From contig NZ_CP042997.1 in the NCBI RefSeq assembly GCF_008087625.1, positions 6,634,001 through 6,698,000 on the forward strand: DNA of 64,000 bases, read 5' to 3'. Origin of the DNA: Aquisphaera giovannonii. Its GTDB lineage: Bacteria > Planctomycetota > Planctomycetia > Isosphaerales > Isosphaeraceae. Below the pieces are notes generated by a model, which had not been told where the DNA came from, searched no databases, and was given only the letters and a program-made list of their open reading frames with translations. A program made the translations under genes and the position numbers. The stretch's first letter is position 1. Every line of letters starts with the position of its first letter. Shown here piece by piece: positions 35,223-57,270 of this stretch.

Positions 35223-37334
<2,112 letters not shown>

Positions 37335-42063: not shown

Positions 42064-42186
42064 TCCATGCGAGGTCCGATCGCCGCCGGGCTCGAGCTGG
42101 CGCGATCCGACACGGAATGCACGCTCGGCTACGCCCTCGCGGCGGCCGCCACGCTTCCTCGTCCTCATCGTCCGGAGTCGTCCTCG

Positions 42187-45100
42187 ATGGAACCCGACTG
42201 GCGGCGTGAGCCGCAGGCGCCCGCGCCGCAAGGCCGTCCTCGACCCGCTCCCTTCCTCTGGTTGCTCGTGCCGGCCCTCCTGATGACCGCAGGTTGCCGC
42301 GGTGACGCCAATCCGCCTGGCGCACCGCCTCGCGGCGCGACCCGTCGGGCGGAAGGTGAGGCGAAGGCTGCGTCGCCCGCCATGCCATCCGCGGGCGAAC
42401 CCGCGAAGGCCCTGGCGGCGTTCAACCAGGGCACGGCGCTGCTGGAGCAGTACAGGTACAAGGACGCGGCGGCGAAGCTGCGGACCGTCGTCGAGGCCTT
42501 CCCCGAATGGACGGCGGCGCGATTCAACTACGGCCTGGCGCTCCTGAATCTGCCCGATGACGCCGACGCCCTCAAGAAGGCCGGCGAGGAGCTGGGCAGG
42601 GTCGTTGCGACGACGCCCGAGCACCGCCCGGCACAATTCTGCCTGGGCATCTTGGAGGCGCACGGCGGCGAATACTCGAAGGCGGTCGGGCATTTCGCGA
42701 AGGTCCACGAGGCCGATCCCGAGGATGCTTTCGTCGCCTTCGAATACGCCGAGGCGCTCCGCAAGCTCGATCGCAACGACGAGGCCCTCGGGGTGCTGGA
42801 GCGGGTCGTCGAGCGGGACCCCGGCTTCGTCTCCGCGTGCTACAGCCTGGGCATGCTCTACAACCGGATGCGGCAGCGGGACAAGGCCGTCGCCGTGCTC
42901 AAGCGCTTCGGCGACCTGAAGTCCCAGGAGTTGGCGGTCGGGTCCTATGGGGTCGTGAAGCCGTACGCCGGGCGTGGCAAGTACTACACGGCGCTCGGAG
43001 CCGACAGCCTGCCGATCCCCGCGACGCCCATGTCCCCGGCGCCCCGGCTCCTCTTCGCGCCGGAGATCCGCTCGATCGACTGCGTCCTCTCCGCCTGGTC
43101 CTGGGCCGGAGGCGAGGTCGCGCTGCCGGGCATCGCCGTCGGCGACGTGGATGGGGACGGGGACCAGGACGTGATCCTCTGCGGGGCCGGCACGGACGGC
43201 GGCGTGGTGCTCCTCGCGAATGACGGCAAGGGGGCCTTCGGGAGGCCGGTCCGCCTCGCCGATCGGGGCGTCTCGCCCTGCCTGGGCGACCTGGACAACG
43301 ACGGCGACCTGGACCTCTGGCTCGGGCGCGACGGGCAGGACCAGCTTCTCCTCAATGACGGCAGGGGGGCGTTCAAGCCGGCGCCGATCTCGACCGCGAA
43401 GGACGGGGCCTGCCTGACCGCGTGCGCCCGCCTGGCGGACCTGGACAGCGACGGAGACCTGGACCTGATGTCGCTGCGGATCAAGGCCGGAGCGGTGCCG
43501 GGCGATGCCTCGCAGACGGCGAGCCCCTCGACGCTCCTGAACAACAACGGCGACGGCACGTTCCCGGACCTGGCCGGGGTCCTCGGGCTGGACCTGCCCG
43601 ACAGGCCGAGTTCGGCGGTGGTGTTCGACGACTTCGACGACGACCGGGACGTCGACCTGGTGCTGGTCTCGCCCAAGGCACCCCCGCTCGCCTGGGAGAA
43701 CCACCGGGTCGGGCGCTTCCGCATCCTGGACTCGAAGGTCACCCGGCTCGATCTCGCGGGCGCACGGAGCGTGACGACCGGGAATCCATTCAAGACCGGG
43801 AAGCGTGACCTCCTCCTCTTCGCGGGCAAGGAGCTTGCCCTCTACCACAACCGAGGCGGCTGGAAGTTCGAGCGGGACGATGAGTTTTCCTCGAGATACG
43901 GGACCCTCGGGGGCACGAGCGGGCAGTTCGCCGACCTGGACAACGACGGCGACCTGGACGTGCTGATCGCCGACGCACACCGCCGCGACGGGAGCCGAGG
44001 GCCGGCCGTCCTCCTGAACGACTGGCCCATCAAGCGGTTCATCGAGGCCACCGAGGCGGACGCCGGCAGCCTGCTCCCGCGCTGGAAATGCGCGGGGGAT
44101 GCCGTCGCCGTCGCGGCGGACTTCGACGGCGACGGGACGCTCGATCTGCTGGTGGCCTCGATGGGGGGGCCGCCGGTCGTCTTCGACAACGCCACGCGCG
44201 GGTCCCACTGGCTGGCCCTCGATCTGAAGGGCCAGCGAGGGCAGGATCAGAACTCCCGCTCGCCCTCGACGTCGATCGGCGCACGGGTCGAGTTGCGTTC
44301 CGGGGCCGTCTCCCAGCAGTACGTCGTCGGGACTCCGGCGGGCGGGACGGCCATGCCGCCAACACGGGTGCACGCGGGGCTCGGCGCGTCGCCTTCGGTG
44401 GACTGGCTGCGCGTCAACTGGCCCGACTCGCTGCTCCAGGCGGAGGTCGAGGTCCTCGGCGACCGGCCCCTGACCCTGAATGAGGAATCGCGTCGGCCGA
44501 GTTCCTGCCCGCACCTGTTCGCCTGGAACGGGCACGCGTACGGGTTCGTCTCGGACTTTGGCGGTGTGGGCGGCCTCGGCTTCCGCACCGGCCCGGGCTC
44601 GTTCGCGACGCCTGACCCGACGGAGTACGTCGCCATCCCCAACCTCGCCCCCCTCGACGGCGAGTACATCCTCCAGGTCGTCGAGCCGCTCCAGGAACTC
44701 GTCTACTTCGACGAGGCCAAGCTGATCGCGGTCGATCACCCGGCCGGCACGACGATCCTGCCGAACGAGATGGCCGCCGTCGGCCTCGCGCCGCCGCCCT
44801 TCGAGGTCTTCTGCTTCCGCGAGGCCATCGCGCCGGTTCGCGCGACCAACGGGCGCGGAGACGACGTGACCGACGCCCTGGCCCGGACCGATCGCGTCTT
44901 CGCGGGCCCGGTCGAATGCGACCGGCGGTTCGTCGGCTTCGCGAAGGACCATTTCGTGGAGCTCGACTTCGGCGATCGCCTGGAGTCGCTGCCGACCGAC
45001 ACCCGTCGCATCCTCTGCCTTGACGGCTGGGTCGAGTACAGCGATTCCACCTCGAACTTCGCCGCCAGCCAGGCCGGGCTGCGCCTGAAGGCGCCGAGCG

Positions 45101-45762
45101 TCCTGGTGGAGCGCGACGGCAAGTGGACCGAACTGCTCCACGAAGCCGGCTATCCGGCCGGGATCAACCACACGATGACGCTCGACCTGACCGGCAAGCT
45201 GCGGCCCGGCGACCGCCGGATCCGGATCGCGACGAACATGGACGTGAGCTGGGACCGGATCTACGTCGCCCTGCCCGGTCCGGCCAGCTCGTTCGGGCTG
45301 AAGGAAGTCGCGCCGCGGAGGGCGGACCTGCACTTCCTCGGCTATCCGCGCGAGTATTCTCCGGACGGCCGCCAACCGACGCTCTTCGACTATTCGAAGG
45401 TCAGCAAGTCGGACACCTGGCACCGGCTGCCCGGCGCCTACACGCGGTATGGCGACGTCCTCGACCTGGTGACCCGGACCGACGACCGATTCGCCGTCAT
45501 GGCCGCGGGCGACGAGATCACCCTGCGGTTCCCGGCCGACGCCTTCGGACCCGTCCCGGCCGGCTGCGTCCGGACCTTCCTGCTGAAGTCCGACAGCTTC
45601 TGCAAGGACATGGACCTCTACACCGGCGCGGGGGACAACGTGGAGCCGATGCCGTACCACGACATGAAGGAATACCCCTACGACCCGGCGACCGCCCCGC
45701 CCGTGCCCGAGGACGTACGGCGGTCGCGCGATCAGTACAACACGAGGGTCATCGCGCCGTGA
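42187..45762 (+). CDS. large TPR + FG-GAP/ASPIC (CRTAC1-like) lipoprotein
   Basis: The 1191-residue product from ATG 42187 (MEPDWRRE) has a signal with lipobox LMTAGC. TPR-like helices cover about residues 70-230 (ALAAFNQGTALLEQYRYKDA and similar, three or four repeats). FG-GAP/VCBS calcium-binding repeats follow, each with DxDxDGDxD-type loops (VGDVDGDGDQDVIL, GDLDNDGDLDLWLG, ADLDNDGDLDVLIA). An ASPIC/UnbV domain has IGARVELRSGAVSQQYV and VDWLRVNWPDSLLQ. The last 400 residues (SCPHLFAWNGHAYGFVSD onward) are a further beta-rich region. It is exported and probably anchored on the outer face. It ends convergent to a binding-protein gene, with a 14-base overlap. Confidence 0.85.
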   Translation: MEPDWRREPQAPAPQGRPRPAPFLWLLVPALLMTAGCRGDANPPGAPPRGATRRAEGEAKAASPAMPSAGEPAKALAAFNQGTALLEQYRYKDAAAKLRTVVEAFPEWTAARFNYGLALLNLPDDADALKKAGEELGRVVATTPEHRPAQFCLGILEAHGGEYSKAVGHFAKVHEADPEDAFVAFEYAEALRKLDRNDEALGVLERVVERDPGFVSACYSLGMLYNRMRQRDKAVAVLKRFGDLKSQELAVGSYGVVKPYAGRGKYYTALGADSLPIPATPMSPAPRLLFAPEIRSIDCVLSAWSWAGGEVALPGIAVGDVDGDGDQDVILCGAGTDGGVVLLANDGKGAFGRPVRLADRGVSPCLGDLDNDGDLDLWLGRDGQDQLLLNDGRGAFKPAPISTAKDGACLTACARLADLDSDGDLDLMSLRIKAGAVPGDASQTASPSTLLNNNGDGTFPDLAGVLGLDLPDRPSSAVVFDDFDDDRDVDLVLVSPKAPPLAWENHRVGRFRILDSKVTRLDLAGARSVTTGNPFKTGKRDLLLFAGKELALYHNRGGWKFERDDEFSSRYGTLGGTSGQFADLDNDGDLDVLIADAHRRDGSRGPAVLLNDWPIKRFIEATEADAGSLLPRWKCAGDAVAVAADFDGDGTLDLLVASMGGPPVVFDNATRGSHWLALDLKGQRGQDQNSRSPSTSIGARVELRSGAVSQQYVVGTPAGGTAMPPTRVHAGLGASPSVDWLRVNWPDSLLQAEVEVLGDRPLTLNEESRRPSSCPHLFAWNGHAYGFVSDFGGVGGLGFRTGPGSFATPDPTEYVAIPNLAPLDGEYILQVVEPLQELVYFDEAKLIAVDHPAGTTILPNEMAAVGLAPPPFEVFCFREAIAPVRATNGRGDDVTDALARTDRVFAGPVECDRRFVGFAKDHFVELDFGDRLESLPTDTRRILCLDGWVEYSDSTSNFAASQAGLRLKAPSVLVERDGKWTELLHEAGYPAGINHTMTLDLTGKLRPGDRRIRIATNMDVSWDRIYVALPGPASSFGLKEVAPRRADLHFLGYPREYSPDGRQPTLFDYSKVSKSDTWHRLPGAYTRYGDVLDLVTRTDDRFAVMAAGDEITLRFPADAFGPVPAGCVRTFLLKSDSFCKDMDLYTGAGDNVEPMPYHDMKEYPYDPATAPPVPEDVRRSRDQYNTRVIAP

Positions 45763-46954
45763 ATCGATCGACCTTCCCGTCCCGGATCGTGGCCAGTGAA
45801 ACGGGGCGGGTGTTGCTCCCGAGGCTGTCCCAGGCGATCGTCCCCGAGACGCCAGGATAGGGACTGAGAGACCGCAGGGCGTCGCCGATCCTAGCCCGGT
45901 TCAGGCCGCCGGATCGGACGGCCTCGACGAGGAGATTCGCGGCGTCGAAGCCGTGGGCGGCGGCGTAGTCGGGGGGCTCGTGGTAGCGGGTCTCGTACTC
46001 CGAGCGGAACGAGGCCGGCATCGCGTCGGGATCGCAGACGAGCGGGAAGACAACGCCTTCCGCCGCAGGTCCGGCGAGGCGTGCGAAGGCGGACCGGCCC
46101 ATCCAGTGGCCGCCGAGGATCGGGCCGCGGAAACTGTCGTTTCGGAGCTCGCGGGCGATCCCGGCGGAATCCCTCGCGTTCGCGGCGATCATCACGGCAC
46201 CAACGTCCTCGGCGACGACCTGGCGGGCCGCGGCGCCGAAATCCGGGTTGTCGGCGGCGAGCACGTGGGAGAACCTCGGCGAGGCTTTTCGAGCCTTCAG
46301 GGCCCGATCGAGCTGGACGAGGAAAGCCCTCGGATCGTGGTCGGGCGTCGAGACGAAGGCGAATCCGCGCGGGCCCGATCGCGCGACGAGGGCGTCGGCG
46401 AGAACCGGTGCCTGAAGGTGGTCGGCCGGCATCGCGGAGAAGAACCAGGGGACGTTCGCCCCGTTGGCCGTGCGGTCGCCGTTGAGCGGGCAGACCAGTG
46501 GCAAGTTCGCCTTGGCGACGACCTGCTCGGCGAGGTGGGCGGAGGGGCCGTCGATCCCGCCGAGGATCGCCCAGGCCTTCTCACGATGCGCCATCCTCGC
46601 CAGGCCACCGACACCGCCCTTCCACGGGTTGTCCGACCACGAGGCCGCGAGCCGGAATGGCTTGCCGCGATAGCCTCCTTCCACGTTGGCGAGGCGGATC
46701 GCCATGTCGGCGCCTCGCCAGACGGCACCTCCTTCGGCGTGGTCCGAGTCGTCGGGGCCGAAGTAGCCGAGGAGGACTTCCTTCGTCTCCTTCGGCTCGG
46801 CCAGCTCGCGCCCGGGGCCGGAGTAGGGGGTGGCCCGGTCGCGGAAGTCGACGTAGGGCTCGACGCGGTGTGAGGAAGGAGTCTGCGCCGCGGAGGGAGC
46901 CTGGACGATGGCCCAGACGTATGCGGCCAATAGCAGGTAAATGACCTGCACCAC
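45749..46954 (-). CDS. ABC-type solute-binding protein (type I periplasmic binding fold), second copy
   Basis: The 401-residue product resembles branched-chain amino acid/urea-type binding proteins (Peripla_BP_6). KEVLLGYFGPDDSDHAEGG starts the domain, with MAHREKAWAILGGIDGPSAH, VPWFFSAMPADHLQAPVLA and a C-terminal GLNRARIGDALRS. The N-terminus is a signal anchor, VIYLLLAAYVWAIVQAPS. No ATG fits; the start is set at GTG 46954, the adjacent GTG 46951 is equal, and an upstream ATT is possible, so the start is uncertain. It shares the fold with the 47224 gene and is probably a diverged copy. No transporter membrane or ATPase gene is next to it. Confidence 0.78.
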   Translation of the reverse strand: MVQVIYLLLAAYVWAIVQAPSAAQTPSSHRVEPYVDFRDRATPYSGPGRELAEPKETKEVLLGYFGPDDSDHAEGGAVWRGADMAIRLANVEGGYRGKPFRLAASWSDNPWKGGVGGLARMAHREKAWAILGGIDGPSAHLAEQVVAKANLPLVCPLNGDRTANGANVPWFFSAMPADHLQAPVLADALVARSGPRGFAFVSTPDHDPRAFLVQLDRALKARKASPRFSHVLAADNPDFGAAARQVVAEDVGAVMIAANARDSAGIARELRNDSFRGPILGGHWMGRSAFARLAGPAAEGVVFPLVCDPDAMPASFRSEYETRYHEPPDYAAAHGFDAANLLVEAVRSGGLNRARIGDALRSLSPYPGVSGTIAWDSLGSNTRPVSLATIRDGKVDRFTAR

Positions 46955-46978
46955 AACCCAGGGCCAGGGAATCCTCTT

Positions 46979-47145
46979 ATCCCCTCCCCCCTGGTGGGGG
47001 AGGGTTAGGGAGAGGGGGAGAGGCTGGCCTTGGACCGCGAGCCAAGCCGCGGATTGAGCTCGGCCCGGTTCGCGGCCGGAATCCTTGCCTGTCCGAGGCG
47101 GTCGCCCCCTCTCCCTAACCCTCCCCCGCGGAGGGGGGAGGGGAT
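46979..47145. repeat. inverted pair of REP-like 41-base GC-rich units
   Basis: Two copies of one motif face each other: 46979-47020 and 47105-47145, separated by 84 bases. Each has an internal 8-base stem (CCTCCCCC and GGGGGAGG) around a 5-base loop, followed by a conserved GTTAGGGAGAGGGGG tail. They differ mainly in the loop (CTGGT against a different GC-rich one). This is the form of bacterial REP/BIME elements, or of a small MITE. The pair lies between the two binding-protein genes, so the message would carry a long stem. Confidence 0.75.
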
Positions 47146-47223
47146 AGAGAGTCGGGGCCGAGCCCGCAGGTGAGAGCAGGTTCGCCTGGTGAGTGGTAGA
47201 TAGAGCATCCCATCCTCGAGCTC

Positions 47224-48666
47224 TCAGGGTTTCTTCCCCTCGCCGCCGGACCTGGGGATGCCCAGGTCGTCGCGGCTGTAGAACTTCCAATGGTCCCCCT
47301 CGCGGCGGGCGAGGTACACCTCGCCGACATCGTCGAGGACGGGGCTGAGGCGGATCTCGCCGGTGACGCCCTGCCAGGGCTCGGTCCGGTACGCGATCAG
47401 GTCGCGGATCTTGGCCCGGTTGAGCCCCGCATTCTGGATCGCCCATATCAGCATCTGCATGCCGTCGTAGGCGTGGGCGGCGTAGGTCTCCGGCCCCTCG
47501 TGGAAGCGGGCCCGGAAGCGCCGGCAGAACTCCCGATAGTGCGCATCGTCCCGCGTCGGGTCCCACGGGTAACCGCAGACCACGCCCTCGGCGTTCTCGC
47601 CGGCGATCCTGACGAACTCATCGGTGACGCATCGGTCGCAGGCGACGAAGGGCTGCTTCATGCCCATGGCCCGCATCTGGTTCAGGATCTTGGCGCCCTC
47701 GACGTCGTCTCCCCAGTGGATCACCACGTCCAGGCCGGCCTGCTTGAGGCGCTCGATCTCCAGCGAGAAGTCCTCTCGGCCCACCTTGTAGGCCATCTCG
47801 ACGGCGATGGGGTGCTCGAGCCGTCGGCTCGCGTCGACGATCTCGCGGACGCCGAAGCGGCCGTAGCGGTTGCTCGACCGGATGATCCCCGCGTGCCGGA
47901 ATCCAGCCTTCCTGTACAGGTAGTCGGCCAGGATGTAGTTCATCTGACGGTCATCGCCGATGTTGCGGGCCACCCAGGGGATGTTCGTCTCGATGAACGT
48001 CGGGTCCGTGTCCCCCGTGTTCATCATCAGGACCTCGCACTTGAGCGCGACCCGGATGGCGATGTGACTGTTGGCTCCGTCGATGGTGCCCAGCATCGCC
48101 CAGACCTTGTCCTTGTAGCTCTGCTTGACGATCTCGTTGCCCGACGAGCCCCAGAGCCCGTTGTCGTTGGAGACGACGAGCTCGAACGGCAGCTTGCGCT
48201 TCAGGTAGCCGCCGTCGGCGTTCGCCTCCTCGATCGCCAGCAGGGACCCCTGGTACATCTTCTTGCCGAGGGCCTCCTCGTGGCTCTTGCCGCCGGTGGC
48301 GACGGAGACCGTCGGATACAGGGGACCGATGAAGCCGATCTTGACCGACTTCAGGTCGCCGGGCTCGGGCACGGACCGGCCCGCCCCCGTGTATTCGAGC
48401 TGGGTGCGGAAGTGCGTCCTGTACGGTTCGACGTGGTGGAACGGCTCCAGCTCCTTGACCGTGTGCGCGTAGCGGAGGTCATTCTTGAGCGGCAGCGCGG
48501 GGACCTGGTACGGGCTGACGGCGTCGATGGCCTTCAGAATCTCATCCGTTTTCAGGTCCCGCGGGGCGGCGGCCTGCGGGGCGGCCCGGGGGGCGTCCTG
48601 CGCGGCGGCCTGCCACGTGATGTAGGTAGAGGAGAGAACCAGGAGGGACCATTTCAGCGTTCGCAT
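47224..48666 (-). CDS. ABC-type solute-binding protein (branched-chain amino acid/urea type)
   Basis: The 480-residue exported protein (signal MRTLKWSLLVLSSTYITWQ) has an N-terminal extra region of about 95 residues with a lot of alanine and proline. The Peripla_BP_6-type lobes follow from VKIGFIGPLYPTVSVATGG. Visible blocks are GKKMYQGSLLAIEEANADGGY, KVWAMLGTIDGANSHIAIR, AGFRHAGIIRSSNRYGRFGV and KQPFVACDRCVTDEFVRIAGE. In ABC uptake systems such proteins bind a small ligand. No permease or ATPase is present, so a sensor or accessory role for the adjacent cytochromes is possible. It follows the propeller gene by 105 bases. Confidence 0.82.
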   Translation of the reverse strand: MRTLKWSLLVLSSTYITWQAAAQDAPRAAPQAAAPRDLKTDEILKAIDAVSPYQVPALPLKNDLRYAHTVKELEPFHHVEPYRTHFRTQLEYTGAGRSVPEPGDLKSVKIGFIGPLYPTVSVATGGKSHEEALGKKMYQGSLLAIEEANADGGYLKRKLPFELVVSNDNGLWGSSGNEIVKQSYKDKVWAMLGTIDGANSHIAIRVALKCEVLMMNTGDTDPTFIETNIPWVARNIGDDRQMNYILADYLYRKAGFRHAGIIRSSNRYGRFGVREIVDASRRLEHPIAVEMAYKVGREDFSLEIERLKQAGLDVVIHWGDDVEGAKILNQMRAMGMKQPFVACDRCVTDEFVRIAGENAEGVVCGYPWDPTRDDAHYREFCRRFRARFHEGPETYAAHAYDGMQMLIWAIQNAGLNRAKIRDLIAYRTEPWQGVTGEIRLSPVLDDVGEVYLARREGDHWKFYSRDDLGIPRSGGEGKKP

Positions 48667-48771
48667 GTCGAGTCTCGCAAAGCCGGGGCCCGGTCCGGAT
48701 GACGGGAATGGACGAGACGCCGGCCGCCGCGGCGCGGGCGGGATGCGGCGACCGGAGGAGGTGCCCGGCGG

Positions 48772-50079
48772 TCAGGGCCGCGCCTGCGCCGGGATCAACG
48801 TCGCCCTCGCGGCCGGATCCTTGGCGGCCGGGTACGGTCTCCCGTCGGGCGTCCGCACGCCCGGGAAGTAGTCGTCGCCCATCGCCCAGCCGAGGCCCTT
48901 CCCGGTTGCCACCCATACGTCCTTGCCGTCGATGTCGAAGTTGATGATGAAGTTGTGCGGCACTCCCGTCTCCATGTCCACCGACTTCAGGAGCTTTCCC
49001 CGGCGGTAGACCTTCGCCACGCCGCGGAGGCTCTGCGGGTCGCGGGTGTACGCGACGTAGGTGTCGGTGAAGAAGTCGGCCACGACGCCCACGCCCTTGT
49101 CGGTCCCGAACCAGCCCTCGGCCGCGCTCCGGCCCCGGACGGCGTTCGTGAAGTCGCTCGGGATGCCCGTCTCGTGCGAATAGAAGCCTCGCCAGTTCCG
49201 GCCGTCGTACCGGCAGTTGCCGAAATACGACGAGATCCAGAGTGTGCCGTCGACGTGCGTCGCCCCCGTGACGATGACGTGGACGATGCCGTCATCCCGG
49301 TAGAGGTCGATCTCCATCTCGCCGTCGGGATCCAGGTATTCCTTCCAATGCTTCGTCTGGAGGTCGTACTCGAGGCAGCCGCTCCCCCAGACGCCCAGGT
49401 AAACTTTCCCCTCGTCATGGGATACCGAGTAATTCCAGATCTCCTCCATGGGCGCGTTCTTCTCGTTGAAGATGGTCCACTCGCGCGTTTTCGTGTTGTA
49501 CCGGCTGCAACCGGCCGTCGTGGCGGCCCAGACCGAGTCTCCCTCGATCGTCACGCCGTAGACGACGTCGTTGACGAGCCCGCTGTTGAGCTGGGTGAAG
49601 TGGTCGAACCGGCCGCCGCTGAATCGGGCCAGCCCGCCGCCGAAGAGGCCGAGCCAGACGTCCCCGGTGTTCCTGTCGACGTCGATCGCCGTGACGGCCT
49701 GGAACGGCAGGCCGTCCTTCTCCTTCCAGCTGCGGATCTTGCCCGTTCGTCTGTCGAGGCAGGCCAGGCCGTCCTCGGTGCCGATCCAGACCCTCGGCCC
49801 GTCAACCTTCACCGAGAAGACGTGGTCGTCGGGCAGGCCGTCCTTGACCGTGAAGTGCCTCCACTTCGTGTAGACGTACGGCAGGGCCTCATCGGGCACG
49901 TCCTTGATCTGCGTCGCCGCGAGGGGGACCTGCCCGGGGACGATCGGCGGGGTCGGCTTGGGGGCCCGGGTCGGTCCGTGGGCGGGCCGAACCGGCTTCG
50001 GGTCGTCGGCACTCAGCAAGCCGGCCGGCATGGCGGCGAGGAGCACCGCCCATGCGGGCAAGGCGTTGAGGTATTTCAT
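48772..50079 (-). CDS. secreted beta-propeller (Reg_prop-type) protein
   Basis: The 435-residue product has a signal peptide (MKYLNALPAWAVLLAAMPAG) and then six to seven propeller-like blades. Examples are FTVKDGLPDDHVFSVKVDG, RVWIGTEDGLACLDRRTGK, DVWLGLFGGGLARFSGG, SVWAATTAGCSRYNTKT and VWVATGKGLGWAMGDDYF. This pattern resembles the two-component regulator propeller (Reg_prop), usually a periplasmic sensor domain of hybrid kinases, here without any kinase. It lies 42 bases after the ten-heme gene and 105 before a binding protein. The start is at 50079. Confidence 0.78.
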   Translation of the reverse strand: MKYLNALPAWAVLLAAMPAGLLSADDPKPVRPAHGPTRAPKPTPPIVPGQVPLAATQIKDVPDEALPYVYTKWRHFTVKDGLPDDHVFSVKVDGPRVWIGTEDGLACLDRRTGKIRSWKEKDGLPFQAVTAIDVDRNTGDVWLGLFGGGLARFSGGRFDHFTQLNSGLVNDVVYGVTIEGDSVWAATTAGCSRYNTKTREWTIFNEKNAPMEEIWNYSVSHDEGKVYLGVWGSGCLEYDLQTKHWKEYLDPDGEMEIDLYRDDGIVHVIVTGATHVDGTLWISSYFGNCRYDGRNWRGFYSHETGIPSDFTNAVRGRSAAEGWFGTDKGVGVVADFFTDTYVAYTRDPQSLRGVAKVYRRGKLLKSVDMETGVPHNFIINFDIDGKDVWVATGKGLGWAMGDDYFPGVRTPDGRPYPAAKDPAARATLIPAQARP

Positions 50080-50121
50080 GTGAGATTATCCAGGAACCAA
50101 GAGAAGGCGATGTTCGCGGAA

Positions 50122-53046
50122 TCACAAGGTCTTCAGGTACTCGATCAAGTCATTGAGCTGGTCCTTGGTCATGTCGTTGGTCACCCCGTGCGTGTCGCGC
50201 GGGTTGTAGACGGTCCAGATCTCCTCGAGCGTGGCGGCGATCCCGTTGTGCATGTAAGGGGCCGAGTCGTAGATGTTGTTGAGGTGGGGAACGTCCACCT
50301 TGTCGTCGATGTCCGGCGCCATCTTCGAGCCGATGTCGTGCCTCTCGCGGTCGGTGTACAGCGGCGGGAAGTGGCACGTCGCGCAGCGGTTCTGCTTGCG
50401 GATCGGCCGCCCGTCGTTGGTCGCCGTCCGCTCGAAGATCGCCTTGCCGCGTCGCTGGGCGGGCGTCAGCTCGGCCCCCAGCGGCCGATAGCGGTTGGGC
50501 GGCCTCGGGATCGTGCTGATGTAATGGTCGACCGCCTCCAGCTCCTCCGACGTGTAGGGCTGGATCCGCGTGAAGTACACCGAGAGCCTGGGCCCGCACT
50601 GGCGCGACAGGGTCGCGTTGCCGCCGTTCCACTTGAACGGGCCGGTGTCGAGGATGCCCCGGAGCGTCCGATTGTCCACCGGCGCCGTGCCGATGCCATC
50701 GGCCTCGATGTCGTACGTTAATCCGTCCACGTGTCCGTCGGGATGGCAGGTGTGGCAGGAGAGCTGGCGGCGTAAGGCGATCCCGGCGTTGTTGAATAGG
50801 CGTTCGCCGAAGCGGGCCCGCGAGATCTCCTTCGGCCCGCCCAGATCGACCCGGCGGACCTCCTTGCGGGCGGCGATGTCGATGACCGCGACCGCGTCCT
50901 CGAGGGCGCAGGCGACCCATGCCGTCTTGCCGTCGGGTGCGACGGCCAATCCGCGGGGATTGATGCCCGTCGCGATCCGCCCGATGACGAATTCCGACGC
51001 CTTGCCGAGGTGGTTGGGCAGGACGTCCTCCCGCTCCCGGGGCGTCGCCACGGCGATCACCTTGCGCAGCCTCGCGACGTCGACCAGCGCCACCCGGTCC
51101 GAGCCGGAGCTCGTCACGAGCGCGAGCGTGCCGTCCGGAGTGAAGGCGACGTCGGTCGGGTCGGGGAAGGACTCGCCCGGATCATCGAGGAGGACCTGGT
51201 CCACCTGCCCATCCGCGCCGATCACCGCCAGGCCGTTCGTGACCGTCCATCCCTGGGTCATCCGGGTCATGGGCACGAGGTTCTTCGTCCGCTCCAGCGT
51301 CGCCAGGGCGAACTCCCCGGAGGGATGCCAGGCGATCCCGAGGAGCATGTTGGCGCCCGGCGCGGCGTGGCGATCGTCGACCACCTCGCGGGACGCGTCG
51401 ACCGCGGTGATCTCCGAGACCGACGGCTCGCGGAACGGGACGAACCGCGAGAGGGCGTTCGTCACGAGCATCCGCCCGCCGTCCGGCGAGAGCGCGATCG
51501 ACCAGGGGGAGCGGCTTGCGGAGAGCCTCTTCCGCTCCCGGAGGGTCTTCGCGTCGAGGACCGAGATGTCGTCCGACGCGGTGTTCACCACGTACAGCGT
51601 GCGGCCCGAGGCGTCGGTGCGTACGCCATGCGGCTCGTCACCGACGGGCACGGTCGCCGTCACGCGGCGGGCCGTCGCGTCGATGACCGACAAACTGTCA
51701 TCGAGCCGGTTGGTCACGTAAGCGCGAGAGCCATCCGGGCTGAACGTCACGTCCGTAGGCTGGCCACCGACGGGGATCTCGGCCACCTTCGTCATCGATT
51801 TCGAGTCGAGCACGCAGACCGTCGCCGAGGCCTCGCAGGTGACGTAGACCTCTCGCCCGCCGGGGCGGAAGGCAAGCCGGAGCGGCGTCTTGTAGCGGGC
51901 CTCCCTGGACACGGCCGGGGGCCTGGCCGGGTGCGCGATCGCCTTGAGGGCTTCCTCGTGGGCGAAGGGCTTTCCCCGGTTCTCGTCGTGGCACGAAGTG
52001 CATGTCTCGCTGGACGTGGCCAGGAGGCCCGTCTTGAACGTCCTCGGCCTCTCCTTCAGCTCGGCGGCAGCCGTGGCATGTTCGCTCCCCGGGCCGTGGC
52101 AGGCCTCGCAGCCGACCCCTTCGAGCACGGAGTAGGTCTCGGCCGCGCCCGCGGAGTCGCGATGGTACGCCGTGGCGTGGCACTTCAGGCACTCGGTGCT
52201 CATCTGGGGATCGTCGTTGATCCCCTTCTCGAGGGCCACGTTCTTCGCGTGCGGCGTCCCGAGCGCGGCATACGCCCGGGCGTGGGGCGTGTCCCGCCAC
52301 TTGCAGAACTGCGAGCCCTTCTCGGCGGCGTCGTGGCACTCGGCGCAGGCGTGCGAGCCGATGTAGGAGGCCCCCGCGCCCTCCCTGGTGGGGAAGGGGG
52401 GCGGCTGCATCGCGACCGGCTTCGCGTCCTTCGGGGTCGGATGGGAAACGGCCTTCAGGGCCGCCATCAGGTCGAAGGGCGTTTCCGCGCGGTTGGGACG
52501 GCGGGGCTTCGCGGGGAGGATCCTCGTGTGCGACGGCTTTTCCTTGTGGCAGTTCATGCAATCCGCGGGGAGCGGATTGGTGAGCGCGATGCGGGCCGAC
52601 CCGTCTTTCCCCGGCGCCCAGGACTCGACGTGCTCGCTACCCGGGCCGTGACACTTCTCGCACTGGACCCCGTCGCGCAGCGAGAACGTGTCGTCCTTCT
52701 CCGCGGGCTCGGCGTCCGACCCGGTGGCGTGGCAGCCCAGGCAGAGCGGCGACCTCTGCGGCTCGATCGGCACGCCGCTGATCGCGGCGATGGATCGCGC
52801 CTCGGGCGTTGCCAGGCTGGCATAGGCCTTGGCGTGCCGCGTCCCCATCCAGAGCGTCGCCTGGTGGCCCATGTTCGGGCCGTCGTGGCAGGTCGCGCAG
52901 ACCTTCGCCCCCACGTAGACGGGCTTCCTGGGCTGTGCCCGGGCCGTCGTCGGCCAGGCGAGACACGCGAGCGAGGCGGCGAGGACCGCCGGCAGGGATA
53001 GGATCGAGGCTCGCTCGGATGCCCAGTCGTTCGCACCGCGGCACAT
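50122..53046 (-). CDS. ten-heme cytochrome/beta-propeller/MauG-type di-heme fusion protein
   Basis: The 974-residue exported protein has three parts. Residues 50 to about 370 hold eight CXXCH heme sites (CATCH at 50, then CLGCH, CEKCH, CMNCH, CAECH, CLKCH, CEACH, CTSCH), resembling c554-type multiheme proteins. Residues about 390-750 form a YVTN-like beta-propeller (VTNRLDDSLSVIDATARRVTA). Residues 764-974 have two more heme sites, CHTCH at 764 and CATCH at 888, in a MauG/di-heme peroxidase-like arrangement. A signal peptide ends near ARAQP. In known families the MauG part reduces peroxide or oxidises a protein; the combination here is inferred. Ten CXXCH in total. Confidence 0.88.
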   Translation of the reverse strand: MCRGANDWASERASILSLPAVLAASLACLAWPTTARAQPRKPVYVGAKVCATCHDGPNMGHQATLWMGTRHAKAYASLATPEARSIAAISGVPIEPQRSPLCLGCHATGSDAEPAEKDDTFSLRDGVQCEKCHGPGSEHVESWAPGKDGSARIALTNPLPADCMNCHKEKPSHTRILPAKPRRPNRAETPFDLMAALKAVSHPTPKDAKPVAMQPPPFPTREGAGASYIGSHACAECHDAAEKGSQFCKWRDTPHARAYAALGTPHAKNVALEKGINDDPQMSTECLKCHATAYHRDSAGAAETYSVLEGVGCEACHGPGSEHATAAAELKERPRTFKTGLLATSSETCTSCHDENRGKPFAHEEALKAIAHPARPPAVSREARYKTPLRLAFRPGGREVYVTCEASATVCVLDSKSMTKVAEIPVGGQPTDVTFSPDGSRAYVTNRLDDSLSVIDATARRVTATVPVGDEPHGVRTDASGRTLYVVNTASDDISVLDAKTLRERKRLSASRSPWSIALSPDGGRMLVTNALSRFVPFREPSVSEITAVDASREVVDDRHAAPGANMLLGIAWHPSGEFALATLERTKNLVPMTRMTQGWTVTNGLAVIGADGQVDQVLLDDPGESFPDPTDVAFTPDGTLALVTSSGSDRVALVDVARLRKVIAVATPREREDVLPNHLGKASEFVIGRIATGINPRGLAVAPDGKTAWVACALEDAVAVIDIAARKEVRRVDLGGPKEISRARFGERLFNNAGIALRRQLSCHTCHPDGHVDGLTYDIEADGIGTAPVDNRTLRGILDTGPFKWNGGNATLSRQCGPRLSVYFTRIQPYTSEELEAVDHYISTIPRPPNRYRPLGAELTPAQRRGKAIFERTATNDGRPIRKQNRCATCHFPPLYTDRERHDIGSKMAPDIDDKVDVPHLNNIYDSAPYMHNGIAATLEEIWTVYNPRDTHGVTNDMTKDQLNDLIEYLKTL

Positions 53047-53062
53047 CGCGTCGTCACTCCAG

Positions 53063-54715
53063 TCAGCGGGGTGGCTGCACCACTCTCAGGATCTGGTTCG
53101 CCGGGACGTCCGTCAGCACGGTCGTCCCGGCACCCGGCCAGCGGATCTCAACCGTCTCCGCCCGTGCCGCCTTCCCGAGCCCGAAGTGCGGCCGCGGGTC
53201 GCCCTGGGAGAGGTAGCCCCGCACCGGGATCAGGTCGTCGATCTGGACGAGGCCCCCGACGCGGACCGAAACCCTTGCACCGATGGCCGGCGTCTTGCCG
53301 CCCGGCCCGCGGGCGTCGATGGTCAGCCAGTTGTTGAGCGCGTTCCCGCCGTCGTTGCGGAGCAGCCTCGGCGAGTCGCCCAGATTGATGACCAGGATGT
53401 CGACGTCGCCGTCGTTGTCGAAGTCCCCCCAGGTCGCCCCCCGGCCCACGAATTTCTGGGAGAAGTAGGGGCCCGATCGCCCGGCGACGTCCACGAACTT
53501 CCCCTTGCCCGCGTTGCGGGCCATCACGGCGCCCTCGCCGTATTCGTGATGGGCGTCGCCATTGGCGACGAAGAGATCCGGCCAGCCGTCGTTGTCGAAG
53601 TCCTGGAGGATGGCCCCCCATCCCGTGTACTGGCCGCAGATCATGGCCAGGCCCGAGGCGTTCGTCTGGTCCTCGAAGAACTCGCCCCTGTTGATGTGCA
53701 GGCAGCCGTAGCCCATGTCCGGGATGTAAAGGTCGAGCCTGCCGTCCCGATCGACGTCCCCGAAGACCGGGCCCATGGATGAGACCCCCTGGCCCCCCTC
53801 GCCGAAGGCCAGCCCCAGGACCAGGCCGTCGCTGGTGAACTTCCCGCCGCCGTGGTTGCGGTAGAAGTAGCTCTCCATCGCGTCGTTGGCGACGTAAAGA
53901 TCCAACCGGCCGCTGTTGAGGAAGTCGGCCGCCGTCGCGCTCATCGCGCGGCCGTCCTTGTTGAAGACGCCGGCGGCCCGGGTCACGTCGGTGAAGGTGC
54001 CGTCCCCGTTGTTCCGGAAGAGCCGATCCGCCTGGCCCGGGTAGCTGAGCGGGCCCGGATACCCCGCAGCCGCGTAATAATTGCGGAATTTGCCGCCGTC
54101 GTACTGGAGATACGTGGCCACGAACAGGTCGAGCTTGCCGTCGATGTCGTAGTCGAACCAGACCCCTGAGAGCGACCAGTCGCCAGGGGCGTCCAGGCCC
54201 GACTTCTTCGAGACGTCCGTGAAGGTGCCGTCGCCGTTGTTGCGATAGAGGATGTTCGGCCCGTAATTCAGGACCAGGAGATCGGTGAATCCGTCGCCGT
54301 CGTAGTCGGCCGCCGAGCAGGCCACGCCATAGCCGTCGCCCCCGCCGACCCCGGCCTTGCTCGTCACGTCGGTGAAGGTGCCATCGCCGTTGTTGCGATA
54401 GAGAAAATTGGCCAGCTTGCCCCTGAGGCGACGGCCGGTGTTGTCGTTGACCTCGGGCTTGTAACGGCCGTTCACGATATAGACGTCGAGCTTCCCGTCG
54501 TTGTCATAATCGAAGAACATGCAGCCGGAGCCGGTCCCCTCGACGATGTTGCTCAGCTCCTTGTCGCCGAAGCTCAGGGTTGCCTTGATGCCGGCCCGCT
54601 CGGTGACGTCGGTGAAGACCGGCACCGGCGGATCGTCGCCGCGGGCCGGGAGGATCGGCGCCGCGAGGGCGGCGAGGAGGAGGGCATGACGGATATCGCG
54701 AAGACGACTCTTCAT
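53063..54715 (-). CDS. CRTAC1-like FG-GAP/ASPIC exported protein
   Basis: The 550-residue product has a signal peptide (HALLLAALAAPILPARG), six to eight FG-GAP repeats and a C-terminal ASPIC/UnbV domain (WLTIDARGPGGKTPAIGARV, ETVEIRWPGAGTTVL). Three repeats are nearly identical, each with YRNNGDGTFTDV. FG-GAP loops bind calcium and make a propeller. Such proteins are abundant in Planctomycetes and of unknown function. It starts on the ATG that overlaps the stop of the upstream HzsA-like gene, and is followed by the ten-heme gene after 16 bases, which strongly suggests an operon. Confidence 0.9.
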   Translation of the reverse strand: MKSRLRDIRHALLLAALAAPILPARGDDPPVPVFTDVTERAGIKATLSFGDKELSNIVEGTGSGCMFFDYDNDGKLDVYIVNGRYKPEVNDNTGRRLRGKLANFLYRNNGDGTFTDVTSKAGVGGGDGYGVACSAADYDGDGFTDLLVLNYGPNILYRNNGDGTFTDVSKKSGLDAPGDWSLSGVWFDYDIDGKLDLFVATYLQYDGGKFRNYYAAAGYPGPLSYPGQADRLFRNNGDGTFTDVTRAAGVFNKDGRAMSATAADFLNSGRLDLYVANDAMESYFYRNHGGGKFTSDGLVLGLAFGEGGQGVSSMGPVFGDVDRDGRLDLYIPDMGYGCLHINRGEFFEDQTNASGLAMICGQYTGWGAILQDFDNDGWPDLFVANGDAHHEYGEGAVMARNAGKGKFVDVAGRSGPYFSQKFVGRGATWGDFDNDGDVDILVINLGDSPRLLRNDGGNALNNWLTIDARGPGGKTPAIGARVSVRVGGLVQIDDLIPVRGYLSQGDPRPHFGLGKAARAETVEIRWPGAGTTVLTDVPANQILRVVQPPR

Positions 54716-56712
54716 GGATTGGACCCCGATTGCGCTTGCCGTCGTGCCTCGGGAATCGCTCCGCGGCGGGCGCCCAGGTCGATCCAGCGGATGATCGTCC
54801 CTATCTCGGCGTCGGTCAGCTCAGGGGCCCGGCCGACCGGGATGGGCTTGAACCCACGTGACCCCTCGGCCTCGTCCCAGGGCCTGGCCGTGCGGGCCCC
54901 GACGACGTGCCAGGCCAGCGGGCTCGTCCGGGCTCGGCCCGGGTGGATGTAAGTCCCGCACCAGATTGCCCGTTCCCCGGGCCCGGCCGCCCCGAGGAGG
55001 CCGGCATGGAGCCGGTCCAGTGCGGCGGGATCGCGGGCACCGGCGGCCGGCAGCTCCGGCGTCTGATTGCCGGCCCCGTGGCAGGGCAGGCACCTCGATT
55101 CGACGATCGGGACGATGTCCCTCGCGAAATCGGGCGTGGGGCACGCCGGGTCGGGGACCGTCGCGTTGGCGACATCGGTCCTGAGGGCTTCGGGCACGCG
55201 ATTCGGCGGGGTCCGCTCGGGATCCTCGTGGCAGCCGATGCAGCCCTGGGCCTGGTGGCTCCGCGACCAGATCCAGCCGCACGACCGGATCGCCAGCCCC
55301 CGCCCGTCCAGGGCCTGGAGCTGGATCGGCACGTTGGCCGGGACCTTGGCGTGGAACGAGCCGTCGGCCTGCACGGGTATCTCGGCGAGGATCCGACGGG
55401 GCGAGAGTTCCGCGACCGGGGACATCGCCGACGCTTCGCGCCTCGAGCCCGGTTCCGCGCCCCCGGTCGGCATCCCCTCGACGATTCGGATCGACTTCAC
55501 CGCCCCGGCCGGCATCCACGACGGGTCGGGCAGGTCGTGGATCGACACGTCCAGGCAGTAGATCTCGGCCTCGCGATCGTCCGGCGAGACCACGCTCGAC
55601 CGGCCGTCCGGGCGCGGGCGGGGATGGACGGCCCGCGGCCAGCTCAGGTCGAAGCCCGTTTCCTCGCATACGGGCGCGAGTGTCCTGGCCCCGCCGTCCA
55701 GCCGACAGATGCCCCGGACGGTGGCGTCGGCGCCCCGCCAGGCGACGAGCAGCGTGCCGTCGGGCAGGGGGGACGGCGAGGAGAAGAGGCCGTCGTCGGG
55801 CCCGGTCAGCCTCTCGTACGTGTGGAGGGGCCGGCGGAGCGAGACGCGGGCAAGCGAGCCCTCGCCCCGCCCCGTTTCCCGCACGGATTCCACGAAGACG
55901 AGGTCTCCGCCCGGCGTCACGCAGGGGCCCCGGCGAGCCGCCCCGGAACGCGGAGCGATCGACGCGCGGTCGGAACCGTCCGTGTTCAGGCTCTCGAGCG
56001 CGAGGCGTCCGGCCCTGCCGTCGCCGAGATCGGCGCGATGCCACGACGCATACGCGAGGCGTCCATCGGGCAAGATGGCCGGGTCGAGGTCGCTCGCCAG
56101 GTTGTAGGTGATCCGCTGGACGTAAGAGCCGTCGAGCTTGCAGGTCCAGATCGCCGTCGCCGGCCCTCCGGTCCTCTCGTCCCTCCGATCACCGGCCGGG
56201 CGGACGAACGCGATCTGGTCCCACGGCTCCTTCTCGGTGATCGTGTAATAGCTCGACGTGTAGACCGGCGAGCGGCAGGGGCCGAGGTTGCGGGTGACCC
56301 GGCGGACGTGGCCGCCGTCGGCGTCCATCTCGAAGATCTCCCAGCCGTCCACCGCGTCGTGCTTGCCCGCGAACAGGATGCGGCGGCCGTCGATCGAGAC
56401 GTCCGGTTCGCCGGCCGAGTGGAAGCCCGCGGTCAGGACGCGCCTCGTCCCGTCCGGATCGAGGCGGACGAGCTGCGCACCGTCGCCGGGTCCACCTCGC
56501 CCCGCGGGTTGTCTCGCGTAGACGACCGGGCAGGGCATCGTCGCCGCGTCCGACCTGCGGTCGAGCGGTCGGTCGGTGTCCGACGCCTTCGCTGCGGGAG
56601 GGCCGGCCCCCAAGAGACCCGCAAAGAAGCCGGCGGTAGAAACCCAACACAAGCAGACAGCCCGAAGCGGCCGCCGTCCTCGAAGATGAGGACGAAGAGG
56701 GACTCCAATCAT
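54712..56712 (-). CDS. HzsA-related exported di-heme beta-propeller protein
   Basis: The 666-residue product (start at 56712, MIGVPLRP) has an N-terminal signal. A TolB-like propeller follows (LVRLDPDGTRRVLTAGFHSA, GRRILFAGKHDAVDGWEIFEMDADG, TAIWTCKLDGSYVQRITYN), with the overall plan of the hydrazine synthase alpha subunit (HzsA) family. Two CXXCH sites sit near the C-terminus: CIGCH at about residue 491 and CLPCH at about 541, the latter in VPIVESRCLPCHG. Related proteins are common in non-anammox Planctomycetes, so hydrazine synthesis is not implied. It overlaps the CRTAC1 gene by ATGA. Its start could also be 56763. Confidence 0.75.
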   Translation of the reverse strand: MIGVPLRPHLRGRRPLRAVCLCWVSTAGFFAGLLGAGPPAAKASDTDRPLDRRSDAATMPCPVVYARQPAGRGGPGDGAQLVRLDPDGTRRVLTAGFHSAGEPDVSIDGRRILFAGKHDAVDGWEIFEMDADGGHVRRVTRNLGPCRSPVYTSSYYTITEKEPWDQIAFVRPAGDRRDERTGGPATAIWTCKLDGSYVQRITYNLASDLDPAILPDGRLAYASWHRADLGDGRAGRLALESLNTDGSDRASIAPRSGAARRGPCVTPGGDLVFVESVRETGRGEGSLARVSLRRPLHTYERLTGPDDGLFSSPSPLPDGTLLVAWRGADATVRGICRLDGGARTLAPVCEETGFDLSWPRAVHPRPRPDGRSSVVSPDDREAEIYCLDVSIHDLPDPSWMPAGAVKSIRIVEGMPTGGAEPGSRREASAMSPVAELSPRRILAEIPVQADGSFHAKVPANVPIQLQALDGRGLAIRSCGWIWSRSHQAQGCIGCHEDPERTPPNRVPEALRTDVANATVPDPACPTPDFARDIVPIVESRCLPCHGAGNQTPELPAAGARDPAALDRLHAGLLGAAGPGERAIWCGTYIHPGRARTSPLAWHVVGARTARPWDEAEGSRGFKPIPVGRAPELTDAEIGTIIRWIDLGARRGAIPEARRQAQSGSNP

Positions 56713-57270
56713 GGAGCTTGCACCTGTCCCCGGGAGTCGAGGGGCGTGCGGCAAAGCTCTCACGGCGTCCGACCTGGATCGGGCGAGGTGGGATGGCCTT
56801 CGCGGCCGCGGCCATTTCCCGGGTCAATCACCCGCCCGATACGCATTCATCGCGATCGGCCGGATGCAACGTTTTGTCGATCGTTTTAGTCAGTTTTCTT
56901 TTGTCTTGAATTCACATCTGTCGCGGCAAGGCCAGAGGATTTCATCGTACAATCGCGTTCGATGAATGAAAGAGCCTACCGTCCGGGCCCCCCCGAATTC
57001 CGCGGTCGGCCCGGATGCTTGCGCCGAACGACCGTCGGAGGACTGCTTGCCTCACTACGACCCGTGCATTAAGATGGTTCGCTGTGAGGGCCGGCAGTTT
57101 GAAGCTACCCGAGGCCGGGGCGGGATGCGTCCGCCACCCCGGGCAATGCCGGACCAGGATGACGGGGGCATTGGGATCCCGGGGGCCCGCGGGCGGCCTC
57201 CTCGCGGGATCCCGTTCGCCTTTCCGGCGCCGCGAATGGCCTCGAACCGATCCGAGGGAGATTCTCGACG
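56713..57270. other. 558-base region between the redox cluster and the small basic protein gene
   Basis: The genes diverge. The block 56870-56960 is clearly AT-rich (runs of T and A), a probable promoter region for the leftward cluster, and a candidate rightward promoter lies at 57047-57075. No open frame here looks coding. Confidence 0.45.
57047..57075 (+). promoter_or_regulatory. candidate promoter of the small basic protein gene
   Basis: TTGCCT and TAAGAT with a 17-base spacer. The start codon is about 195 bases downstream, so a long leader would be made if this promoter is used. Confidence 0.4.

Follow-up and report, generated by a model that had tools for sequence, protein, structure and literature searches.

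What Aquisphaera giovannonii does with six neighboring genes, two of which resemble subunits of hydrazine synthase (HZS), the anammox enzyme, is the question raised by the window analyzed here, a stretch of 64,000 nucleotides from contig NZ_CP042997.1 (contig positions 6,634,001 to 6,698,000). The genes, called g1 to g6, lie next to one another on the minus strand from position 56712 of the window down to position 45749, according to open reading frame (ORF) calls. Our preferred reading, held tentatively and at a little short of an even chance, is that they encode an exported multiheme redox complex that belongs to the HZS family (clade I), that is not itself HZS, and that works on a small nitrogen-containing compound delivered by binding proteins of the amino-acid type. 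The kind of system is known. In the text of Hagglund et al. (PMC12758564), published in December 2025, alpha and beta-gamma homologues are sorted into clades I to IV, A. giovannonii is placed in clade I, and the alpha/CRTAC1/beta-gamma core of this organism is already described; we reproduce that core here and extend it. The genome amounts to 10,526,296 bases in three contigs, and Table 1 of PMC7716859 lists strain OJF2 with 10,526,296 bp, two plasmids, and a strictly aerobic lifestyle.

Relation of g1 and g3 to hydrazine synthase

g1 (54712 to 56712, minus strand) encodes 666 amino acids from the ATG at 56712, in an ORF that is open from a GTG at 56763, and is predicted to be an exported diheme protein like HZS alpha. 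It scored 71.2 bits against PF18582 (HZS_alpha), and it aligned with the HZS alpha chain 5c2v_A (E 2.4e-38) in four stretches that cover the whole chain. Moreover, an AlphaFold model of g1, with a predicted local distance difference test (pLDDT) score of 81.7, had 5c2v_A as its top match in the PDB (E 4.1e-39), with a template modeling (TM) score of 0.70 on the query. The HZS alpha fold, made up of a propeller, a middle domain, and a C-terminal heme domain, was found in g1 by sequence and by model.

g3 (50122 to 53046, minus strand) is a composite with 10 CXXCH motifs, in which two tetraheme C554 domains (residues ~1 to 365) are followed by a propeller like HZS beta (~385 to 724) and a diheme domain like HZS gamma (~738 to 974). 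Pfam reported Cytochrome_C554 and a propeller, and the diheme part was found by other profile and structure-sequence matches. The C554 part matched 1bvb, a Nitrosomonas-type cytochrome c554 (E 1.2e-10), and NF043010 (61.2 bits). The propeller matched HZS beta (E 2.8e-34), and 5c2v_B was the top PDB match of the AlphaFold model (pLDDT 78.1), with a TM score of 0.91 on the target. The diheme domain matched HZS gamma at E 2.7e-17, a relation drawn from sequence only. Thus, a beta propeller followed by a gamma diheme domain, which is a feature of HZS, is present in g3. We conclude from sequence and models that g1 is a full-length HZS alpha homologue and that g3 is an octaheme C554 part fused to HZS beta and gamma. 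Because g3 is a beta-gamma fusion and g1 its alpha partner, the cluster is a divergent HZS family set. A reading of the DNA made without database searches (the sequence-only reading) had called g1 HzsA-like and had spoken of a ten-heme propeller and a MauG-type part; the relation of g1 to HZS holds, and the other two are better taken together as one beta-gamma fusion. The twelve CXXCH hemes it had claimed were counted as 2 in g1 and 10 in g3.

The relation is distant. The curated NCBIfam cutoffs for HZS were missed by wide margins (149.6 bits against 800, 175 against 1250, 154.2 against 560, and 73.5 against 625), and although the beta-gamma fusion model was the top NCBIfam model for g3, it is the one that reached 175 bits. 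The set is homologous to HZS with scores far under the cutoffs and is therefore assigned to the HZS family with no member at curated thresholds. An L-NosZ identity was also considered and rejected (57 bits against 700, from the propeller part only).

Heme sites

How far the active sites of HZS are kept was read from an alpha alignment of 60 rows (50 clade I, 4 clade III, 1 other, and 5 anammox) and a beta-gamma alignment of 83 rows (61 clade I, 9 clade III, 8 paralogues, and 5 anammox), with the roles of HZS residues as given in the texts of PMC12607021 and PMC12758564. Tyr591, the ligand of heme alpha-I in HZS, and Ser590 are present in 5/5 HZS rows and fall in a two-residue gap in all 55 non-anammox alpha rows, which read C-x-G-C-H-E there instead. 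Among the clade-I alpha rows, full conservation of His is confined to the heme motifs, Met and Lys are conserved nowhere, and no Tyr exceeds 92%. Given the lack of any conserved non-motif His, Met, or Lys and a best Tyr of only 92%, heme alpha-I is likely open: the CXXCH His is probably its ligand and the other face is free. Heme alpha-II is missing from some alpha rows, and its distal ligand in HZS, His772, falls in a gap in g1 in a single pairwise alignment. The text of PMC12758564 likewise reports that the distal alpha-II His772 is missing in clade I and that the alpha Cys303/zinc site is not conserved in homologues.

The gamma domain is kept more selectively. The gamma heme ligands, the distal His of gamma-II, and H953 are retained in the beta-gamma rows. 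Cys165, which makes a third covalent bond to the heme in HZS gamma, is Cys in 60/60 clade-I rows with a residue there, in 9/9 clade-III rows, in 5/5 HZS rows, and in 3 of 8 paralogues, and the alignment indicates that the triple-cysteine gamma-I site is kept in clade I. The place of HZS gamma His144 is taken by Trp in 59/59 clade-I, 9/9 clade-III, and 8/8 paralogue rows. The place of gamma Asp168, suggested in the text of PMC12607021 to be a redox-coupled protonation site in HZS, is Leu in 59 and Phe in 1 of 60 clade-I rows.

Conservation of the cluster

How widely the cluster recurs was addressed by searching 84,980 species with four orthologues of g3; the best 80 of 544 loci were taken, such that counts are lower bounds and lean toward close relatives. 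Sixty-seven loci (L numbers) were counted after L100 (on the same contig as L028), L145 (on the same contig as L056), and L165 to L179 (C554 part only) were dropped; one ORF was counted per gene, and loci on contigs that end early were excluded gene by gene. Gene order is kept in L028, from a genus mate (ending before g6), in L029, from another family of the same class, and in L056, from a planctomycete. Among testable clade-I loci, the gene was present on the expected side in 54/54 cases for g4, 49/50 for g1, 52/56 for g2, 46/50 for g5, and 37/44 for g6. All six genes were colinear in 30 of the 36 fully testable loci, and because the order recurs so often, a chance neighborhood was rejected. 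The check that the sequence-only reading had set itself, a conserved neighborhood in relatives, thus came out in its favor, and by sequence comparison g2, g4, g5, and g6 are taken to be conserved gene partners of g1 and g3. Moreover, the pairwise distances of the six genes correlate with one another (Spearman 0.40 to 0.76, among the six genes and with no background gene compared).

By title, the loci come from Planctomycetota, Acidobacteriota, Verrucomicrobiota, and a few others; L160, titled Arcobacter sp. and placed by the tree inside the Bryobacteraceae, is probably misbinned. Of 392 genomes sampled from the phylum, 16 had a g3 match at E <=1e-75 and 75 had an HZS_alpha match, and comparison of the two lists placed HZS_alpha in 15 of the 16 genomes with a g3 match, G281 being the exception. 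Looser beta-gamma relatives were more common, being found in 32 of 59 relatives at E 1e-60, and were mostly paralogues of ~33% identity without C554. The A. giovannonii genome itself holds two more beta-gamma-like paralogues without C554 (C1:8635192 and C1:4803122), with no g1 match within the surrounding 16 to 18 kb. A quick beta-gamma tree held together the 61 clade-I rows, the 9 clade-III rows, and the 5 anammox rows with support of 99, 93, and 100, respectively, by the Shimodaira-Hasegawa-like approximate likelihood ratio test (SH-aLRT, no bootstrap); two long paralogue branches meet in this tree, and the placement is unsure.

In L155 (9683 to 12528) and L156 (1390 to 4112), a beta-gamma ORF with two CXXCH motifs is followed by a separate ORF with four that matches the C554 part of g3, and the C554 domain, fused elsewhere, appears there to have split off and moved. 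One genome of the anammox type has a second copy of beta-gamma (G420:C26:45160-47245, L196), whose match to the HZS model is fragmented and contains many stops; this copy shares a contig with an HZS_alpha match and looks decayed or misassembled.

Partner genes

g2 (53063 to 54715, minus strand; 550 amino acids; PF13517 and PF07593) is predicted to be an exported CRTAC1/UnbV FG-GAP propeller, and the literature on bacterial CRTAC1 gave nothing on its role in such clusters. g4 (48772 to 50079, minus strand; 435 amino acids; PF07494) is predicted to be an exported beta-propeller of the two-component-regulator type (Reg_prop). g5 (47224 to 48666, minus strand; 480 amino acids) and g6 (about 45749 to 46954, minus strand, from an inferred GTG start at 46954) are both solute-binding proteins of the Peripla_BP_6 family (PF13458), g5 being of the Leu/Ile/Val/amino-acid type. 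In two clade-III loci, L057 (7996 to 10509) and L058 (4055 to 6970), the g4 and g5 matches share one uninterrupted ORF, a fusion that suggests that propeller and binding protein touch. The structural matches of g5 are 3ip5, 4mlc, and 1usg, with strongly conserved motifs, and those of g6 are 4gnr and 3hut. An Asp of g5 aligns with an Asp of 3ip5 and a Glu of 1usg, at a position conserved in at least 95% of 48 rows, and we take this position to be the residue that binds the ligand amino group.

The layout of the six genes is compact and as the sequence-only reading had described it: g1 and g2 overlap by the 4 bases ATGA, and the gaps are 16 bases between g2 and g3, 42 between g3 and g4, and 105 between g4 and g5. 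The gap between g5 and g6 would be 269 bases if g6 begins at GTG 46954, and it contains an inverted repeat (46974 to 47149) with 48-nucleotide arms that are 79% complementary; the arms are rich in CCCTCTCCCTAACCC-type sequence, and the repeat may be a dispersed palindromic element. Because the intergenic gaps are too small, a permease or ATPase gene between g1 and g6 is excluded, as had been claimed for the two binding proteins. Judged by eye only, the N-termini of all six proteins resemble signal peptides, which agrees with the claim of export signals throughout save that the N-terminus of g6 could instead be an anchor. A promoter scan of the cluster returned 0 sites, and terminator-like sites numbered 6 against 6.1 in shuffled sequence.

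The gene set extends past 45749 to 56712, in that relatives of two plus-strand genes of the window are found next to the cluster in other loci. g7 (42067 to 45762, plus strand), convergent with g6, encodes a protein with tetratricopeptide repeat (TPR), FG-GAP, and UnbV parts, with a likely start near 42187 and a lipobox-like N-terminus, both by eye; similar TPR/FG-GAP proteins (>100 bits) occur near the cluster in 10 of 67 loci, A. giovannonii included. The gene adjoining g7 (40828 to 42063, plus strand; 411 amino acids) encodes a Rid/chorismatase-like protein that scored 50.2 bits against PF01042 and 42.4 bits against PF21168, is clearly related in sequence to 5ag3 (5ag3_A, E 4e-43) and 4bps, and stayed under the cutoff for FkbO/Hyg5 chorismatases (TIGR04444; 194.6 bits against 325). 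Rid proteins hydrolyze enamines and imines, and the Arg and Glu of the Rid motif are kept here by eye. Across 32 Rid rows, two of which repeat two others, an Arg stands shortly ahead of E-x-[ED] in all 32 (22 by a pattern in which P, L, or A had to follow the Arg, and 10 by eye).

Rid genes are regular neighbors in clade III. All nine clade-III clusters in the tree contain a Rid gene (PF01042, Rid/YjgF), which is flanked by g4 and g5 in six and follows the binding proteins in three; these nine omit L066, which has a Rid and lies outside the tree, and L047, a contig of 3,082 bases that ends inside g4 with no Rid seen, and with both the count is 10/11. A whole-genome search found the cluster Rid in all nine clade-III genomes at 2 to 6 Rid matches per genome, several of them domains of one gene; these counts are lower bounds, because the Rid of the window escaped that search. 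With so few matches per genome, chance adjacency in clade III is unlikely, although the related genomes do not count as independent cases. In clade I, 28 loci had 3 kb of sequence on either flank, and a Rid was found no more than 5 kb away in 13 of them.

Other neighbors are occasional. A C-N hydrolase lies near the cluster in 6 of these 28 clade-I loci; the total is seven loci, and in six of the seven the hydrolase is on the opposite strand. Response-regulator-like ORFs lie near six of the 67 loci (L119, L121, L124, L125, L134, and L157; two checked by Pfam, one with a sigma-54 activator domain), and members of the extracytoplasmic function (ECF) sigma factor family lie near four (L129, L142, L143, and L160; one checked). 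Clustering of flanking ORFs returned, on reading, mostly antisense shadow ORFs; the remaining families recurred in 2 to 7 loci. One protein next to the A. insulae cluster (L100, 422 to 2446, minus strand) combines a redoxin, a cytochrome, and a Cu-type II monooxygenase C-terminal domain and adjoins a porin gene. In the A. giovannonii window, a large ORF at 35223 to 37334 (plus strand) looks by eye like a catalase.

Discussion

How the complex would work can be sketched from its relatives. Alpha (g1) and beta-gamma (g3) would form one complex, as in HZS, with g2 in a structural role. Electrons would pass between the C554 hemes and the bis-His heme gamma-II and from there to the triple-cysteine heme gamma-I, while heme alpha-I, with the CXXCH His as proximal ligand, would be a second open site. 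g5 and g6, with no permease beside them, may supply the complex with a small amine, amino acid, or amide, g5 docking on the g4 propeller, and the cytosolic Rid protein may handle an enamine or imine product. Our best guess is therefore two-site chemistry on a small nitrogen compound; the amino-compound class is suggested by the alignment of the conserved g5 motifs to 3ip5 and 1usg and by what is known of the Rid family. In a bolder version, to which we allow only a slim chance, the cluster would be a two-site nitrogen-bond enzyme that predates anammox and reaches beyond it: gamma-I would make or bind a reactive nitrogen (or oxygen) species, and alpha-I would join it to, or split it from, an amine delivered by the binding proteins. 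The HZS of anammox bacteria would then be an ammonia-using offshoot of a general exported organic N-N/N-O chemistry found in Planctomycetota, Acidobacteriota, and Verrucomicrobiota, a strict aerobe among them.

Several observations weigh against the proposed complex. His772 of g3, four residues past the CXXCH His of gamma-I, shows no variation across clades I and III and the paralogues, is Gln in HZS, and could be a gamma-I ligand that closes the site. The g3 model has low confidence within the gamma domain (773 to 829 and 924 to 934). Six of the 36 fully testable loci are not colinear (L105, L129, L144, L148, L151, and L154): g6 is absent from L105 and L129 and, in L154, lies in another place on the opposite strand; L148 and L151 are without g2, g5, and g6; and L144 keeps g4 alone. 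Because these six break the set, not every core requires the partners. Finally, the Rid of the A. giovannonii window is of a divergent, multidomain type that the whole-genome Rid search did not list, and since no Rid was found in 15 of the 28 clade-I loci that have 3 kb of sequence on either flank, Rid may be a passenger in clade I.

Other functions were weighed against the same evidence. The gamma domain of g3 carries a pair of c hemes, its Trp stands where, according to the text of PMC12758564, cytochrome c peroxidase (CCP) and MauG have theirs, and the host is a strict aerobe (PMC7716859, Table 1). An enzyme of that type, in which gamma-I reacts with peroxide or O2 and either oxidizes a partner protein or detoxifies peroxide, with C554 feeding electrons and the propellers as targets, would also account for the weak MauG and MbnH matches of g3. 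Those matches, however, reach 25.4 bits against a cutoff of 443.85 for MauG and 24.0 against 362.85 for MbnH. In CCP and MauG, a distal Glu is expected ~20 residues after the Trp, and g3 has Thr in that place. Moreover, the alpha subunit and the amino-acid-type binding proteins would go unexplained, and we consider a peroxidase unlikely. Equally unlikely in our estimate is turnover of hydroxylamine or nitric oxide (NO), for detoxification or electron scavenging, as the ancestral half of the HZS reaction with C554 serving as it does in Nitrosomonas. The match of the C554 domains to the Nitrosomonas-type cytochrome, the retained triple-cysteine gamma-I, and one multiheme match of hydroxylamine oxidoreductase (HAO) type elsewhere in the genome are consistent with such turnover, but Asp168 is replaced in all 60 clade-I rows, the binding proteins and Rid have no evident part in it, and the genome gave no match to Cu nitrite reductase (TIGR02376, E 0.001), the one NO source searched.

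The cluster could instead be a surface module for ligand sensing and response, in which the binding proteins sense and the heme proteins report. Two binding proteins without a permease, a Reg_prop-family g4 fused to g5 in two genomes, and the response-regulator-like ORFs and ECF sigma factors near some clade-I loci would suit sensing. Ten hemes conserved to the ligand residue are hard to explain in that way, however, and the regulator families are common ones that recur in few loci, which leaves sensing a slimmer prospect than any named so far. The sequence-only reading had offered a coupled electron-transfer or peroxide/ligand-response module, and of this a coherent exported electron-transfer set stands, with peroxide and ligand response surviving as the alternatives just given. 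Least probable by far is a genuine HZS in a non-anammox planctomycete. The cluster is homologous to all three HZS subunits, and HZS-like genes in Phycisphaerae metagenome-assembled genomes (MAGs) have been proposed as possible anammox genes (PMC10732223). Nonetheless, Tyr591 and Ser590 are absent from every non-anammox alpha row, His144 has become Trp and Asp168 Leu or Phe, the bit scores reach 149.6 of 800 and 175 of 1250, the gene order is reversed relative to anammox bacteria (PMC12758564), and the host is strictly aerobic; on the residues and scores, we rejected it. An accessory set for pyrroloquinoline quinone (PQQ) was rejected as well. PQQ-dependent alcohol dehydrogenase gene sets combine a TIGR03866 propeller with a TIGR03863 binding protein, and the cluster resembles them in having an exported YVTN propeller next to a periplasmic binding protein, but g3 scored 110.8 bits against the TIGR03866 cutoff of 287.3, and TIGR03863 was not among the matches of g5 or g6.

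Among known systems, clade I of PMC12758564 is the closest. Its text describes a CRTAC1 gene in between, together with gamma Cys165, the Trp, and eight additional hemes, and judges clade I not to be HZS; the cluster agrees in species, in the alpha gene, in the intervening CRTAC1, in a beta-gamma with eight extra N-terminal hemes, in Cys165, and in Trp at 144. One difference lies in lifestyle, as the same text groups A. giovannonii with obligate anaerobes, whereas PMC7716859 lists it as an aerobe. With anammox HZS (5c2v; NF052339, NF052340, NF052341, and NF052342), the cluster shares the alpha architecture, the beta propeller, and a gamma diheme domain with Cys165 and bis-His gamma-II, and with Scalindua HZS also the beta-gamma fusion. 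Unlike anammox HZS, it lacks Tyr591, His144, and Asp168 and has an extra octaheme C554, extra partner genes, and an alpha gene ahead of beta-gamma. The 2023 account of hzs-like genes in Phycisphaerae MAGs by Dalcin Martins et al. (PMC10732223) raised either anammox or a broader enzyme family. Two loci that bear MAG names from that account, L150 (OFTM321) and L151 (OFTM286), have an alpha-like gene beside a fused beta-gamma with a C554 part, followed by g4; they differ in having six hemes in g3 and one in alpha, and no g2, g5, or g6 was found in L151, L150 being on a short contig. With Trp in place of His144 and without Tyr591, L151 speaks against the anammox proposal.

What appears to be new here is the set around the core. 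The abstract of PMC12758564 notes that HZS was thought to lack homologues outside anammox bacteria. Its main text mentions two ATP-binding cassette (ABC) binding proteins downstream of the cluster, the clade being ambiguous, and mentions no Reg_prop gene, Rid, TPR, or nitrilase, though its figures or supplements may show g4. The claim of the sequence-only reading that no named pathway has this set still holds, the core nonetheless having been in print for A. giovannonii. Among published accounts found, with the same reservation about g4, none brings together a constant g4, its fusion to g5, partners of the Rid, hydrolase, and TPR kinds, and an aerobic host. Colinearity of all six genes was likewise not found in print, the figures and supplements of PMC12758564 lying outside the comparison. 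Since that text already lists Syntrophobacter, Paludibaculum, and Opitutus as clade-I members outside Planctomycetota, our wider taxonomic range is an extension and not a discovery.

The residue survey cautions against inferring anammox from hzs-like matches in metagenomes. The constant g4, the amino-acid-type binding proteins, the g4-g5 fusion, Rid, and the occasional C-N hydrolase are hints about the substrate class and the assembly of the complex. Ultimately, a six-gene relative of HZS whose order is kept across phyla and which occurs in a cultured strict aerobe makes A. giovannonii a practical organism for studying what the forerunner of anammox HZS did.

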